From contig NC_002689.2 in the NCBI RefSeq assembly GCF_000011185.1, forward strand, positions 1,054,001 to 1,118,000: DNA of 64,000 bases, in the 5' to 3' direction. Shown piece after piece: positions 12,138 through 17,519 of the stretch. A program made the translations under genes and the position numbers. The stretch is from Thermoplasma volcanium GSS1 (lineage in GTDB: Archaea; Thermoplasmatota; Thermoplasmata; Thermoplasmatales; Thermoplasmataceae). Positions within the stretch are counted from its first letter, which is position 1. Each line of letters begins with the position of its first letter. The notes under the pieces were generated by a model. That model had not been told where the DNA came from. It searched no databases and was given only the letters and a program-made list of their open reading frames with translations.

Positions 12138-13415
12138 GTGTTTAGCCATCACCAGACGTATCACACAATAAGTATTATGGTAGATTCCGATTCCCACGTG
12201 ACCGTAGTTGAACCTAATTCTGACCAAAAACTAGATACGGCTGTAGCTACTGTACTTCATGAAATATCTAGTTTCCAGAGCTTTGCTGTAGAAAGGGACT
12301 TAGAAGATGTTATAGAGAGGATCTCCAAAGTATTTAGAATATCGGATATAGATGCCTTCAGGTATTACATTAATAAATCGATTTCCGGCCTTGGCAAGAT
12401 ATATCCACTCTTTAATTTAGAAGAGGTAAAGGAAATAGATGTTAATGGCTACGACGAACCTGTGATAGTCAAACTTTCCGACGACAATTATTATACAACC
12501 AACATAAAGCTTCTCGCAAATGAAGTGGATTCAATAGCAATAAGATTGGCCCAGCTAATGGGAAAAAAGATATCAACAAGCGATCCGCTGGCAAGGGGGA
12601 CACTTAATAACCGCGAGGTTTCTATAACTTTCGGCACTGAAATATCGCCTAAAGGCTCCTCTATACGAATAGCAAGAAATGATTCCGGCTACGATTTGAA
12701 AAAATTCGTAGAATCAAATGGTTTTTCGCTGGAATCTATATCGTACCTAAAAATTGCTATTGAGAATTCAAAATCCATTGTAATAATAGGGCCTCATACA
12801 GAGTTAAAATACTCTGCCCTCCTCTTCTTGATGGACTTGGTAGATAAAGAAAAAAAGATTACTTACATAGGAGAGAAAATACCATCCAGATCGCCAGGAA
12901 ACTACATATTTATGAAGACGAAAGAAAAATCCATATTTAGCAGCCAAATAGATCGAGTATCGCTTATAAATACGGCAATGAGGCAACGACCTGATTATAT
13001 AGTTATAGATACAATCGAAGTTGTCGATTTGCCATCCGTTATACAGGCCATAACTACAGGACATCCCACATTTACTAGTATTGATATTGATTCGGTCTCT
13101 GCACTAGTTTCCGCATTCTCTGATTCAGCTCTAGATCTTGGGAGAGACATGGTATCTGTGATAGATATAGTCATAGAAATATCCGAGTCTTCAGACCGTA
13201 TCAGCAGCATCTATGAATTCGATAGGTTTGAGCACAATGATGTGCTTTATGACCTCGTGTTCAGCATTGACAAAACTACAGAAAAGCTTCGATACAATGG
13301 ATTTAGCCCAATGTTCCGGAGCATGTCAAATGCCATGGGCAAAGATGATTTCCATAGATATTTGGAGAACGTCCGCAAAATAACCTCAGAGCTTATAGAA
13401 AACGGGCTTTCGTGA
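12138..13415 (+). CDS. Catalytically dead GspE/TadA-like secretion ATPase paralogue
   Basis: A 425-residue protein with the layout of type II/IV secretion ATPases. The N-terminal part has the family segment around KEIDVNG (98-104) and the conserved SIRIAR (175-180). Every catalytic motif is altered. The P-loop position reads GPHTELKYSA (218-227) instead of GxxxxGK[ST]. The Walker B GE is DT (291-292), and the histidine box reads SIDIDS (314-319). The neighbouring QAITTGH is kept, so the fold is conserved. I infer a structural or regulatory subunit pairing with the active ATPase at 14996. The start is either GTG 12138 or ATG 12177; neither has a clear ribosome site. Confidence 0.82.
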   Translation: MFSHHQTYHTISIMVDSDSHVTVVEPNSDQKLDTAVATVLHEISSFQSFAVERDLEDVIERISKVFRISDIDAFRYYINKSISGLGKIYPLFNLEEVKEIDVNGYDEPVIVKLSDDNYYTTNIKLLANEVDSIAIRLAQLMGKKISTSDPLARGTLNNREVSITFGTEISPKGSSIRIARNDSGYDLKKFVESNGFSLESISYLKIAIENSKSIVIIGPHTELKYSALLFLMDLVDKEKKITYIGEKIPSRSPGNYIFMKTKEKSIFSSQIDRVSLINTAMRQRPDYIVIDTIEVVDLPSVIQAITTGHPTFTSIDIDSVSALVSAFSDSALDLGRDMVSVIDIVIEISESSDRISSIYEFDRFEHNDVLYDLVFSIDKTTEKLRYNGFSPMFRSMSNAMGKDDFHRYLENVRKITSELIENGLS

Positions 13416-13416
13416 G

Positions 13417-14265
13417 GTGTTGAAATTGCCAAGGAAGATATTCTTGTTCCTGCAGAGCCAAGTTGCCAGATACGTTCCAAGGAAGACCATTGATAAGCTG
13501 CAGGATCAACTCATAAAATCTCAAATTGAATTAAATGCTGTAAGTTACCTCACGCTCTCGATAATCGTTACCTTTATCTTCTTCATCTTGTTTGCAGCAA
13601 CATCTATATTTACATACTATTTTGATAGGCGGTACTTTTTCCTAGTGTCTGCAGTGTTTTTCCTGCTTGCAGCCCTAGTCCTGTACTACTCATCCTCTTA
13701 CCCGGAGATTAGGCAGAAGTGGATCGCTAGGCAGGTCAGCTTGAGAATTACGGATTTTCTTGCGATAACCTACTCCCTTTCGCTTTCAGGAATACCAGTA
13801 GATAGAATACTCAGGGATATTTCGAATATGGATAGCCTGGGGGAAATAGCGAAGGAATCTAAGAGGATAGTTGTGATGATGGATCGCCTAGGATACGACT
13901 TTTTAACGGCTTTAGAAAAAGCTGAAAAGATTACAGCTTCAGATGATCTTTCAAGGATATGGGCAGGTCTTCGCCTATCCATACTCCTAGATACTGATAT
14001 AGTTGCGTACTTCAGGGATCGGATAGACTATTATAGCAGAGTACAGGAGAACAAATCCAAGCTGTCTTTAGATTCACTTGGCTTAGCATCAGAGAGCTTT
14101 GTTGCCCTAGTAATTGCCTTTCCCCTTCTCATCTTTATGACAGGTTCCATAATATCCATAAAGAACCTTAGCACGATTTTCTTTGTAATATCCCTGATCA
14201 TAGTTTTAGGTGCTTCGGCTGTGATGTTCTATTTTACATCCAAAATAACGGGTGATCTTTCATGA
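13417..14265 (+). CDS. TadB/GspF-type inner-membrane assembly protein
   Basis: A 282-residue membrane protein with two hydrophobic segments at about residues 43-70 and 72-92, a cytosolic T2SSF domain in the middle, and two more at about 208-275. This is the topology of GspF/TadB/TadC platform proteins. A GAGG lies just before the start region. GTG 13417 is used here, though TTG 13420 or 13426 are equally possible. It starts one base after the stop of the dead ATPase and ends with an ATGA overlap into the next platform gene, so the operon is translationally coupled. Confidence 0.82.
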   Translation: MLKLPRKIFLFLQSQVARYVPRKTIDKLQDQLIKSQIELNAVSYLTLSIIVTFIFFILFAATSIFTYYFDRRYFFLVSAVFFLLAALVLYYSSSYPEIRQKWIARQVSLRITDFLAITYSLSLSGIPVDRILRDISNMDSLGEIAKESKRIVVMMDRLGYDFLTALEKAEKITASDDLSRIWAGLRLSILLDTDIVAYFRDRIDYYSRVQENKSKLSLDSLGLASESFVALVIAFPLLIFMTGSIISIKNLSTIFFVISLIIVLGASAVMFYFTSKITGDLS

Positions 14266-14999
14266 AGCCAATATACGGGGCTGTACCTGCACTCCTTGCG
14301 GTTGTGCTTTATCTGATTTACAGAAACCCAGCTGTAATCCTAGCTCTAATCGCATCGGGTATTGCAATAGCATTCGGATCTGAATACATCGATTTACGCA
14401 GAAACGAAGAAAAGAGAAACATGATGGTTCCATCATTTCTCAGGGATCTGTCCAGTTTTTCTTCATATGGTATGTCCATGTATAATATACTTCACTTGAT
14501 ATTATCCGAGGACCTAGGCCCTCTCAACGAGGACGTGAGAAACGCCCGTGCGATATTGGATAATGGGAATACAATAGAGGAAGTTTCAGCCTATCTAAGA
14601 AGCAGAAACTCGCGGGACTTAGACATAGTAGCAGAGGTGATGAAGAATGCAGATAGGGCTGGTAGGCCTGGCACTACCCTACAGTTTCTCTCAACTTACA
14701 TGAACGAAAGGATGAGCCAAAGGAAGAATGCCACCCAGACCGCAGAAAACTACGTAGGATTGATAATAGCTTCCTTTATGATATTCCTTCTTGTGATGAT
14801 AGTTGTGGATTATTATTTTATCCAGAGATCCGGCTTTCTGCTTATAGATTACATATCCGCTATTCTTATCATACAGTCCATTTTTACTGGATTCTATACT
14901 GGCCTAGTTAGATACTCTTCAATCAGATCAGGGCTCTTCTATTCAGGCATGCTTGTTACCATAACGGTTACTCTGTTGACGGTGGCGAGGTTGATATGA
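14262..14999 (+). CDS. TadC/GspF-type inner-membrane assembly protein
   Basis: The second platform protein, 245 residues. Two N-terminal hydrophobic segments are followed by a soluble helical T2SSF domain containing FLRDLSSFSSYGMSMYNIL, and two or three C-terminal membrane segments. Two separate GspF-like subunits are a trait of Tad-type and archaeal Epd/T4P machines. Both ends overlap neighbours by four bases (ATGA at 14262 and 14996), indicating fixed stoichiometry with the first platform protein and the ATPase. Confidence 0.82.
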   Translation: MKPIYGAVPALLAVVLYLIYRNPAVILALIASGIAIAFGSEYIDLRRNEEKRNMMVPSFLRDLSSFSSYGMSMYNILHLILSEDLGPLNEDVRNARAILDNGNTIEEVSAYLRSRNSRDLDIVAEVMKNADRAGRPGTTLQFLSTYMNERMSQRKNATQTAENYVGLIIASFMIFLLVMIVVDYYFIQRSGFLLIDYISAILIIQSIFTGFYTGLVRYSSIRSGLFYSGMLVTITVTLLTVARLI

Positions 15000-16228
15000 G
15001 GGTATACACTGTAGACAACAAGTTCAATGAAGAAACCGTAAAGTTGGGCTTACTTTATTTGTCACAAGCCCACGAGGTATCCATGGAAAACTTCGTAAAA
15101 CAATATGCCCTAGATCAAAGAATGGCCAGTTCCGTTTCAGAATTCGCCGAAGCCTACCGGATAGGCATGGGTAAGGTCGAACCGATCATAAACGACCCTA
15201 TGGTAGAGGATATAACCATAACAAGTGAAAACTACGTTTACATTTACCATTCAAAGCTTGGCCCAATGAGGACAGACGTATTTTTCACTGAGGACGAAAC
15301 TAGGAAGTTTGCACAGCACATTGCACAGAGGTCAGGAAAAACAGTTTCTGTCTATAATCCTGTTGTCGACGTATCATATAAGAATTACAGGATAAACATA
15401 GTTTACGAAGACGTTGGAAAGCCGTCTATATCTATCAGGAAGCTAAGGGCTGCAGCCTTCACACCCTTCGATCTTATACAAAGCGGTGCGGCCACTCCTA
15501 AAGTTATGGCCTACCTCTGGCTGGCAATAGAACACAGATCCAACATTATAATAACTGGATCAACTTCTTCCGGTAAGACCACGCTTCTCAATGCCATTCT
15601 GTCATTCGTACCGAGGGCATCTAGGATCGTAAGTATAGAGGATGCCCGAGAACTAAATATAATGAACGAGAACGTTGTCAGCCTTCAGTCAAAGATAAGT
15701 TTAACACAATCTGGTGGAATTTCAGTGAACGATCTTATAGAATTCTCAAAATATGACGGCGCAGACTATTTGGTCCTCGGCGAGGCCAGGGGAGATGTCA
15801 TAAGGTCTTATTTTAGGTACATCACTTCAGGCAGAAATGCGATCACAACTATACATGGGGGGTCATCGTCTGCCTTGATTAGGAGGCTTAAATCATTGCC
15901 GCTTTATCTTCCTATCTCGAACATACTGGCTATAGACGCAATAGTGGAAGTCAAAAACTCTGGCCGGAGATACATAAATAAAATATCTGAACCTTTTTAC
16001 GAAGGATCTCTTTCATTGAACAACGTTTTTGACTATTCTTCAGGCCACTATGAAGAATCAGGGGTTAGCTATCTACTGGAGAATATTGCCTCAAAAACCG
16101 GTATGGACAGAGAATACATTATTAAGGATTTAGACAGGAAGGCAAAAATCCTTGAAAATATGCAAAAACCTGCAGACTACATGGATTTCGTTAGAAAGGT
16201 AAGGGACGAAGCCAACAAAATTACTTAG
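14996..16228 (+). CDS. Active TadA/GspE-like type IV pilus secretion ATPase
   Basis: A 410-residue hexameric motor ATPase. Walker A GSTSSGKTT lies at residues 188-196, the Asp box in SIEDARELN, Walker B LGEARGD at 261-267 and the His box TTIHGGS at 284-290. All residues lost in the paralogue at 12138 are intact here. It closes the four-gene operon. No class III signal-peptide pilin or prepilin peptidase gene is seen in this window, so the extruded substrate is unknown. The 3' end overlaps the convergent antiporter gene by eight bases. Confidence 0.9.
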   Translation: MRVYTVDNKFNEETVKLGLLYLSQAHEVSMENFVKQYALDQRMASSVSEFAEAYRIGMGKVEPIINDPMVEDITITSENYVYIYHSKLGPMRTDVFFTEDETRKFAQHIAQRSGKTVSVYNPVVDVSYKNYRINIVYEDVGKPSISIRKLRAAAFTPFDLIQSGAATPKVMAYLWLAIEHRSNIIITGSTSSGKTTLLNAILSFVPRASRIVSIEDARELNIMNENVVSLQSKISLTQSGGISVNDLIEFSKYDGADYLVLGEARGDVIRSYFRYITSGRNAITTIHGGSSSALIRRLKSLPLYLPISNILAIDAIVEVKNSGRRYINKISEPFYEGSLSLNNVFDYSSGHYEESGVSYLLENIASKTGMDREYIIKDLDRKAKILENMQKPADYMDFVRKVRDEANKIT

Positions 16229-17519
16229 AGTTCCCATTGCCTTGATCCGGTATAAATATATTCTTCATTATAGGTGTATAAATCGTTTGAAATACGATCG
16301 AAAATAAGACTATAAATAAAGCTGATACGCCTATAACCGGCCCCCATGTGATGAGTATAGGTATGTTGTAAGATAATCCTACAACATATGGAAGTGTGGA
16401 TAGAACGACCGGTACTACTCCTCTAGGCCCAACTAAGGATATAAAAGCAACAATTTTATAGTAGCCTTTCATCTTTATTTTTCCAAGATCGGCTATCAAG
16501 ATGCTGGGAAAGACAGCAGCTGGCCTTACAACAAATATAAGTATTGTGGTTAGCATTATCCCTAGCAATATATACTGTTCTATTTCGTTTATGGTAAAAG
16601 ACGAACCTATCAACAAAAATATTATAGAAGTACTTAAGTATGATAAATTTTCCTGGAAGTTTTTCTCCCTCTGCCAGAATATTCCCTTGTCTGAAAAATT
16701 CCCCACTATTGCCCCCGTCGCAATTATTGCTGGGAATGGGGTTATAGATATGCCTTCAAATATAGTAAATTCAAATATAACCACACCAAGTAGTATTGCA
16801 GTCAGGTAATTTTCAAAGTTTATTTCTTTGTTGAGGTAAATTATTGCAAATCCTATAGCTACACCGACAACAGAGGGCACAGCTACCTGTATTAGGAAAT
16901 ATGCAACAATCCCAGGATAGAAAGATATGCTATTCGCTATGCTTGAGAATAGAGAGACGTATACGGAGTGCGGTGCTAGTATAGCAATTCCCACCGATAC
17001 CAGTATTATACCTACAGGATCGTTGAAGAGACTTTCACCAATCAGTACTTCAGATATATCTTCGCTGATCTTCATCCTCCTAAACAGCGGAATAAGTGTA
17101 ACTGGATCCGTAGGCGATATTATAGCTCCAAACAAAAACCCTATAATAAGCGGAGCTCCAGTAAAGAGGGAAAATAAACCGGCTGCTACAAGAGCGGTTA
17201 TTATCACACCTATGGTGTCGAGAGATGCAATTCTATAGAACGAAGATTTGAGAACCTTTATGTTCATGTTGTGGCTCTCGCTGTAGAGTATTATTACAAG
17301 GCCTATCATTCCTATGCCTACGCCGGCGAATGAGGAAAACAGGTACACAGAAAATGCAGGCGAGATTAATCTTAAAAATGGCCCAACTATGAGTCCTATA
17401 AATATGAGAATTGGTATTTCAACAACCGACATTTTCCTGGCTATAGGTATGGCTACAGCACTGAGCACAAGCAATAAGCTCACATCAAGATACTCACCAA
17501 AGGGAAATATTCCAGCCAT
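16221..17519 (-). CDS. CPA1-family Na+/H+ (or K+/H+) antiporter
   Basis: A 432-residue polytopic carrier with about 12 hydrophobic segments. It carries the CPA1 signatures SPTDP (135-139) and ESLFNDP (162-168), which hold the ion-binding aspartates, and a conserved GPRGVVP near the C-terminus. It probably helps hold near-neutral internal pH in an acid-living cell, but ion choice cannot be read from the sequence. ATG 17519 lies two bases after the nadE stop, so the two are one transcription unit. Confidence 0.88.
   Translation of the reverse strand: MAGIFPFGEYLDVSLLLVLSAVAIPIARKMSVVEIPILIFIGLIVGPFLRLISPAFSVYLFSSFAGVGIGMIGLVIILYSESHNMNIKVLKSSFYRIASLDTIGVIITALVAAGLFSLFTGAPLIIGFLFGAIISPTDPVTLIPLFRRMKISEDISEVLIGESLFNDPVGIILVSVGIAILAPHSVYVSLFSSIANSISFYPGIVAYFLIQVAVPSVVGVAIGFAIIYLNKEINFENYLTAILLGVVIFEFTIFEGISITPFPAIIATGAIVGNFSDKGIFWQREKNFQENLSYLSTSIIFLLIGSSFTINEIEQYILLGIMLTTILIFVVRPAAVFPSILIADLGKIKMKGYYKIVAFISLVGPRGVVPVVLSTLPYVVGLSYNIPILITWGPVIGVSALFIVLFSIVFQTIYTPIMKNIFIPDQGNGNSK

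Follow-up and report, generated by a model that had tools for sequence, protein, structure and literature searches.

What is a four-gene operon for when it pairs two ATPase-fold proteins with two membrane platform proteins and has no pilin beside it? We address this question for Thermoplasma volcanium GSS1, in a 64,000-nucleotide stretch of DNA (the window; positions 1054001-1118000 of the 1,584,804-bp chromosome, whose coordinates are used below for remote genes given in kb). The operon lies on the + strand at 12138-16228 of the window and consists of E1 (12138..13415; GTG start, 425 amino acids (aa)), Fa (13417..14265; 282 aa), Fb (14262..14999; 245 aa) and E2 (14996..16228; 410 aa), orthologues of CdiPE1, CdiPFa, CdiPFb and CdiPE2, respectively. 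The open reading frame (ORF) calls confirm the compact four-gene set described in an earlier note on this DNA, with a 1-base gap between E1 and Fa and ATGA overlaps at the Fa/Fb and Fb/E2 junctions. The operon is an already described type IV pilus assembly machine and not a new system, and its two ATPases in Thermoplasma divide the residues of one active site between them: E1 has lost its catalytic motifs and retained the trans arginine finger, and E2 has all cis catalytic residues and lacks the finger. It is probably a CdiP-type pilus motor and platform whose Thermoplasma ATPases form an obligate mixed ring, with E2 hydrolysing ATP and E1 lending the finger.

The Walker A motif, Asp box, catalytic Glu and His box are all gone from E1 in 5/5 Thermoplasma genomes. 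All four are found in the E1 of each of 35/35 non-Thermoplasma sequences of the order, and the P-loop and catalytic Glu are found in E1 at 40/40 loci of class Thermoplasmata outside Thermoplasmatales. The former Walker A motif reads GPHTELKYS (aa 218-226; 12789..12815), in which the Gly and Thr of GKT are lost and the Lys is retained, and the former Walker B motif, GE[VI]RG in relatives, reads IDTIEV (13005..13022), with loss of the catalytic Glu and the Arg. What remains is RQRP (aa 282-285; 12981..12992), the only four-residue run that is invariant in 40/40 E1 sequences; its first Arg aligns with the interchain arginine finger, ArlI R326 or CpaF R347. E1 is under strong purifying selection among the Thermoplasma species, with a ratio of non-synonymous to synonymous substitution rates (dN/dS) of 0.05-0.10, similar to that of neighboring genes, and its fold is predicted to be retained: the AlphaFold model has a predicted local distance difference test score (pLDDT) of 82.9 and a template-modeling (TM) score of 0.78 both to AfGspE (2oap) and to FlaI. 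An assembly error or a pseudogene was considered and rejected, given open frames in five species and the low dN/dS. Judged by its motifs, E1 is a pseudoenzyme, and in Thermoplasma only. The earlier note had described two ATPase-fold proteins; the fold stands for both, and the catalytic motifs of E1 do not. We found no published report of Walker loss in Thermoplasma E1, and the CdiP paper, as far as its main text goes, is silent on Walker motifs (PMC12448462); the state of the ATPases in Thermoplasma appears to be previously unreported.

E2 has the opposite pattern. Its Walker A motif (GSTSSGKTT, aa 188-196; 15557..15583), Asp box (SIEDAREL, aa 213-220; 15632..15655), Walker B motif with the catalytic Glu (LGEARG, aa 261-266; 15776..15793) and His box (TIHGG, aa 285-289; 15848..15862) are intact. 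At the arginine-finger position, located by residue comparison with homologues, it has Tyr253 (15752..15754). A Tyr is found here in 5/5 Thermoplasma E2 sequences and an Arg in 230/230 other P-loop-intact homologues. The only finger-less ATPases seen are those whose partner is dead yet finger-bearing.

The cis and trans roles that we assign to these residues are carried over from published structures. In the structures of CpaF and ArlI, each ATP site is formed mostly in cis, in CpaF by R223, K287, T288, E312, E357, R359 and H382, and is completed by an arginine of the next subunit, R347 in CpaF and R326 in ArlI (PMC11300603, PMC12019362). CpaF R347 binds the gamma-phosphate of the ATP held by the neighboring chain, and D215 of the N-terminal domain stabilizes it; R347 is described there as conserved across all type IV filament ATPases, and the equivalent mutation in PilT abolishes twitching (PMC12019362; PMC11300603). 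Gapless alignments equate CdiPE1 R346, the first Arg of RQRP, with ArlI R326 and CpaF R347, and map CdiPE1 onto CpaF as D207=D215, R215=R223, E305=E312, E356=E357, R358=R359 and H380=H382. We then took the 65 columns that reach a conservation of at least 95% across 68 other sequences of E1 or E2 and scored them in Thermoplasma E1 and E2. Nine of the 65 are retained by both proteins, 23 by E2 alone, including D207, T281, E305, E356, R358 and H380, and seven by E1 alone (Y129, G228, K296, R346, R348, Q367 and A368). The finger-holding Asp (D207, CpaF D215) is retained by E2, the subunit into whose site the finger would reach; the chain assignment of D215 is our own reading of the packing-unit description, where it is not stated outright. 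Thermoplasma presents a natural experiment in which the cis and trans halves of an active site are placed on separate paralogues.

We propose the following mechanism. Fa and Fb would together build a single platform for the insertion of PilA-like pilins, which are encoded elsewhere and would first be cleaved by a separately encoded prepilin peptidase. E2 would bind and hydrolyse ATP, and E1, unable to hydrolyse, would be the neighboring subunit whose RQRP arginine enters the E2 site; because E1 cannot hydrolyse and would supply this arginine, we predict that the motor works as an obligate mixed ring. In the simplest ring, three E2 subunits would alternate with three E1 subunits on the Fa/Fb platform, giving three live sites at the E2(n)/E1(n+1) contacts and three sites at E1(n)/E2(n+1) that are dead. 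As in homologous motors, the ring would be moved by ATP turnover at E2, and pilin insertion driven by it. The alpha/beta ring of F1-ATPase, in which catalytic and non-catalytic homologous subunits alternate and the non-catalytic subunit supplies the arginine finger, is an analogy only, as it belongs to another ATPase lineage with another function, and we claim no homology. Physical co-assembly of E1 and E2, their stoichiometry and coupling, and the production of a pilus by Thermoplasma are what we infer. That the Thermoplasma motor is an obligate heterohexamer of three E2 and three E1 subunits and that, by extension, the intact E1/E2 pairs across the class share one ring is a proposal that we rate a little above even chances. 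If true, the motor would be limited to three active sites, contrary to the two-fold (C2) rotary models for CpaF and PilB.

The machine to which these ATPases belong is that of Cuniculiplasma divulgatum. That the system is undescribed, as the earlier note implied, does not hold: the same four genes are the CdiP pilus machinery, given in 2016 as CSP5_0712-0715 (PMC5155288) and described in 2025 as CdiPE1-Fa-Fb-E2, with two ATPases, a split platform, pilins ~500 kb off and a solved pilus structure (PMC12448462). The four orthologous genes, their order, the split platform and the distant pilins are shared. In C. divulgatum, however, each of the two ATPases is catalytically complete and has an arginine finger, whereas in Thermoplasma E1 is without an active site and E2 without a finger; with the E1 motifs lost, the Thermoplasma operon lacks the two catalytically intact ATPases that mark the CdiP machinery. 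Thermoplasma E1 and E2 are also each ~100 aa shorter than their C. divulgatum counterparts and other relatives. Two distinct ATPases in one type IV pilus locus were also noted in 2016 for Aciduliprofundum boonei, a member of the same class (PMC4858521). The Aap pilus and archaellum motors (AapE/AapF and ArlI/ArlJ) share homologous ATPase and platform folds, but have a single ATPase and a single unsplit platform (PMC12448462).

Profile and structure-sequence matches identify E1 and E2 as archaeal GspE/ArlI-type secretion ATPases. E2 passes the Pfam T2SSE cut-off of 24.9 bits with 73.2 bits and E1, at 19.3 bits, falls under it; the homology of E1 to secretion ATPases is nevertheless secure from its match to the archaeal GspE structure 2oap (E=9e-32) together with the match of its AlphaFold model to 2oap and FlaI. 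Fa (36.1 bits) and Fb (40.1 bits) each contain one T2SSF domain above the Pfam cut-off of 25.2 bits, in keeping with the earlier description of two GspF-type proteins, but they are not separate platforms. Fa matches ArlJ positions 4-242 of 555 and UpsF positions 12-220 of 484, and Fb matches UpsF positions 266-447 of 484; because Fa fits the N-terminal half of ArlJ/UpsF and Fb the C-terminal half of UpsF, the two are pieces of one TadC/ArlJ-like platform, and the alternative of two independent platform proteins was rejected. In several genera Fa is 480-660 aa long and has an extra region (L049, L050, L052, L053, L057 and L058), compared with ~280-350 aa elsewhere.

The assignment of the window's ATPases as E1 and E2 is supported by profile hidden Markov models (HMMs) and by phylogeny. 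The window's E1 scores 172 bits against the E1 model and 111 bits against the E2 model, its E2 scores 262 against the E2 model and 228 against the E1 model, and the same trend is seen in 5/5 species. In a 62-row tree, 31/31 E1 sequences fall on one side of a branch (SH-like approximate likelihood ratio test (SH-aLRT) 85, not starred). An 80-row tree with an ArlI outgroup was set aside because the long-branched Thermoplasma sequences came out scattered, and orthology is based on the 62-row tree and the HMM scores instead.

The gene order, which the earlier note had proposed to search for in Thermoplasmatales, is conserved: E1-Fa-Fb-E2 is found in 5/5 Thermoplasma genomes and most Thermoplasmatales loci read, and is complete at 39/40 loci sampled in further families of class Thermoplasmata, where the one exception is truncated by the limits of the stretch retrieved. 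The 40 loci were picked from genomes with a strong ATPase match, about half of which had both ATPases listed, and 39/40 is for that reason no unbiased rate; recurrence across these three sets nonetheless places the order far beyond chance. Two ATPases are the rule in class Thermoplasmata and not peculiar to C. divulgatum, the second ATPase of whose pili has been termed 'enigmatic' (PMC12448462). Co-assembly of E1 and E2, if true class-wide, would account for it. In a scan of related loci, a single ATPase with a fused or split platform after it is the usual arrangement in named euryarchaea that lie outside the class. Two loci have a tandem E-E-Fa-Fb arrangement (L136:5572-9698 and L174:3-4502) and a third has two adjacent ATPases (L186:2-3116); these apparently stem from lineage-specific duplications distinct from E1/E2.

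What the machine would assemble is encoded elsewhere. Pilin_N matches are found in the genome at 209.3, 767.9, 999.3, 1003.1 and 1194.9 kb and none lies inside the window, which upholds the absence of a pilin near the operon. Two of these, at 999.3 and 767.9 kb, are PilA-like class III pilins with the N-termini (M)KLNRQDEAVSPIIATILLIAITIVL and MEDKAVSPIIATILLIAITVAL. Neither the Pfam families Peptidase_A24 and Arc_PepC_II nor the C. divulgatum prepilin peptidase as a direct query found a prepilin peptidase in the window's genome; an intermediate query through another genome of the genus Thermoplasma reached a 229-aa homologue at 1412.5 kb, with SDVKKR...GIGD (GxGD motif), whose activity is predicted by homology. 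In genome G048 the machinery, at 676-681 kb, is likewise remote from the pilins, at 1213.9 and 1215.2 kb. The two pilins and the peptidase homologue, all far off, agree with the earlier suggestion of a motor module serving substrates encoded elsewhere. Co-conserved class III signal-peptide proteins were also sought, and among genomes of the order with a completeness of at least 85% (hand count), Pilin_N proteins are present in 51/58 operon-bearing and 0/15 operon-lacking genomes, the latter falling in only five genera, so that independent losses are few. Because pilins are found in trans and co-occur with the operon, the other earlier suggestion, export of something else or of an unknown cargo, is unneeded.

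In four genera of the family to which the window belongs, g2, g5, g11 and g14, neither the whole operon nor the Pilin_N pilins are detected (examples are G041, G060, G088 and G095). Pilin_N matches at or in very long frames are seen in G001, G004, G007, G021, G038 and G040. A 2,166-aa protein at L245:936-7436 (+), with the class III signal-peptide-like N-terminus KGVSEVLGSILILLITVML and an apparent vWA-like segment, FVIDTSGSMNS, appears from its sequence to be a giant pilin-like surface protein.

Several points weigh against a mixed ring. Heteromerisation is suggested by the complementary cis/trans residue pattern, and both the interaction and the activity are predictions. The pattern counts once, as it goes back to a single event in the ancestor of the five species, and the chance of a given conserved site being E1-only is ~7/65 (~0.11) by column counts; for these reasons the weight lies in the known residue roles and the 230/230 conservation, not in a p-value. 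Of the E1-only columns, Y129, G228, K296 and A368 have no role known to us. The retained P-loop Lys means that E1 may bind nucleotide weakly, and both Thermoplasma ATPases are on very long branches in the tree. A basic residue adjoins the lost finger of E2, Arg at +1 in 4/5 species (YRNP or YRSP) and Lys at -1 in the window's E2 (SKYDGA), so a substitute or shifted finger is possible. Mixed rings have been proposed for type IV filament ATPases (PMC6711533), but the best-studied paired pilus ATPases, PilT and PilU of bacterial type IVa pili, which are the one pair tested, were reported as independent, separate homohexamers (PMC6821130), and the Thermoplasma pair bears on whether such rings can form. 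PilT and PilU are, like E1 and E2, a paralogous pair of pilus ATPases; one of them depends on the other and function survives when one is ATP-dead, PilU retraction in Vibrio cholerae requiring PilT, even ATPase-dead PilT (PMC6762196). They differ in that the natural catalytic motifs are intact in both and in that they are not orthologous to E1/E2. By this precedent E1 could be a separate non-hydrolysing ring or adaptor needed by an E2 homohexamer in which the adjacent basic residue replaces the finger. We regard this as unlikely, albeit worth serious consideration: it fails to predict that the trans finger is kept on E1 and its Asp partner on E2, a side chain at helix position +1 or -1 would point elsewhere, and a moved finger is found in 0/230 other intact homologues.

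The obligate mixed ring also has to be set against three further readings. Complete motif loss at low dN/dS is typical of pseudoenzymes turned regulators, and E1 might be an ATPase-derived brake, assembly factor or platform sensor with E2 as the sole motor; this would leave the complementary loss in E2 and the invariant RQRP of 40/40 E1 sequences without reason, and we consider it improbable. Decay of the Thermoplasma system, in which the E1 gene would be dying and E2 would be a relic, would fit the undetected operon in sister genera of the same family (g2, g5, g11 and g14), the very long Thermoplasma branches and the ~100 aa missing from both ATPases. It is hard to credit given that 0/5 species have a frameshift or stop, that E1 is held at a dN/dS of 0.05-0.10 and that gene order, pilins and peptidase homologue are all retained. 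A motor of archaellum, Ups or Tad type instead of CdiP type is the least probable of all, to the point of near-dismissal. The top NCBIfam matches are indeed ArlI/FlaI, ArlJ and UpsF, but the scores are far below the curated cut-offs (201 and 108 bits against 550 for FlaI/ArlI, 42 bits against 550 for ArlJ, 27.5 bits against 400 for the UpsF equivalog and 139.8 bits against 373.15 for the TadA-family model TIGR03819), the genome has a separate ArlI-like gene, at 601.8 kb, and the nearest gene order is that of the CdiP machinery. Membership of an archaellum, Ups or Tad system was rejected on these scores; the earlier note's concern that the genes might belong to an already described archaellum or UV-pilus operon is not borne out literally, yet the machinery is one already described, as CdiP.

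At its 3' end, E2 overlaps by 8 bases a convergent ORF at 16221-17519 (-), which is predicted to encode a membrane antiporter-like protein.

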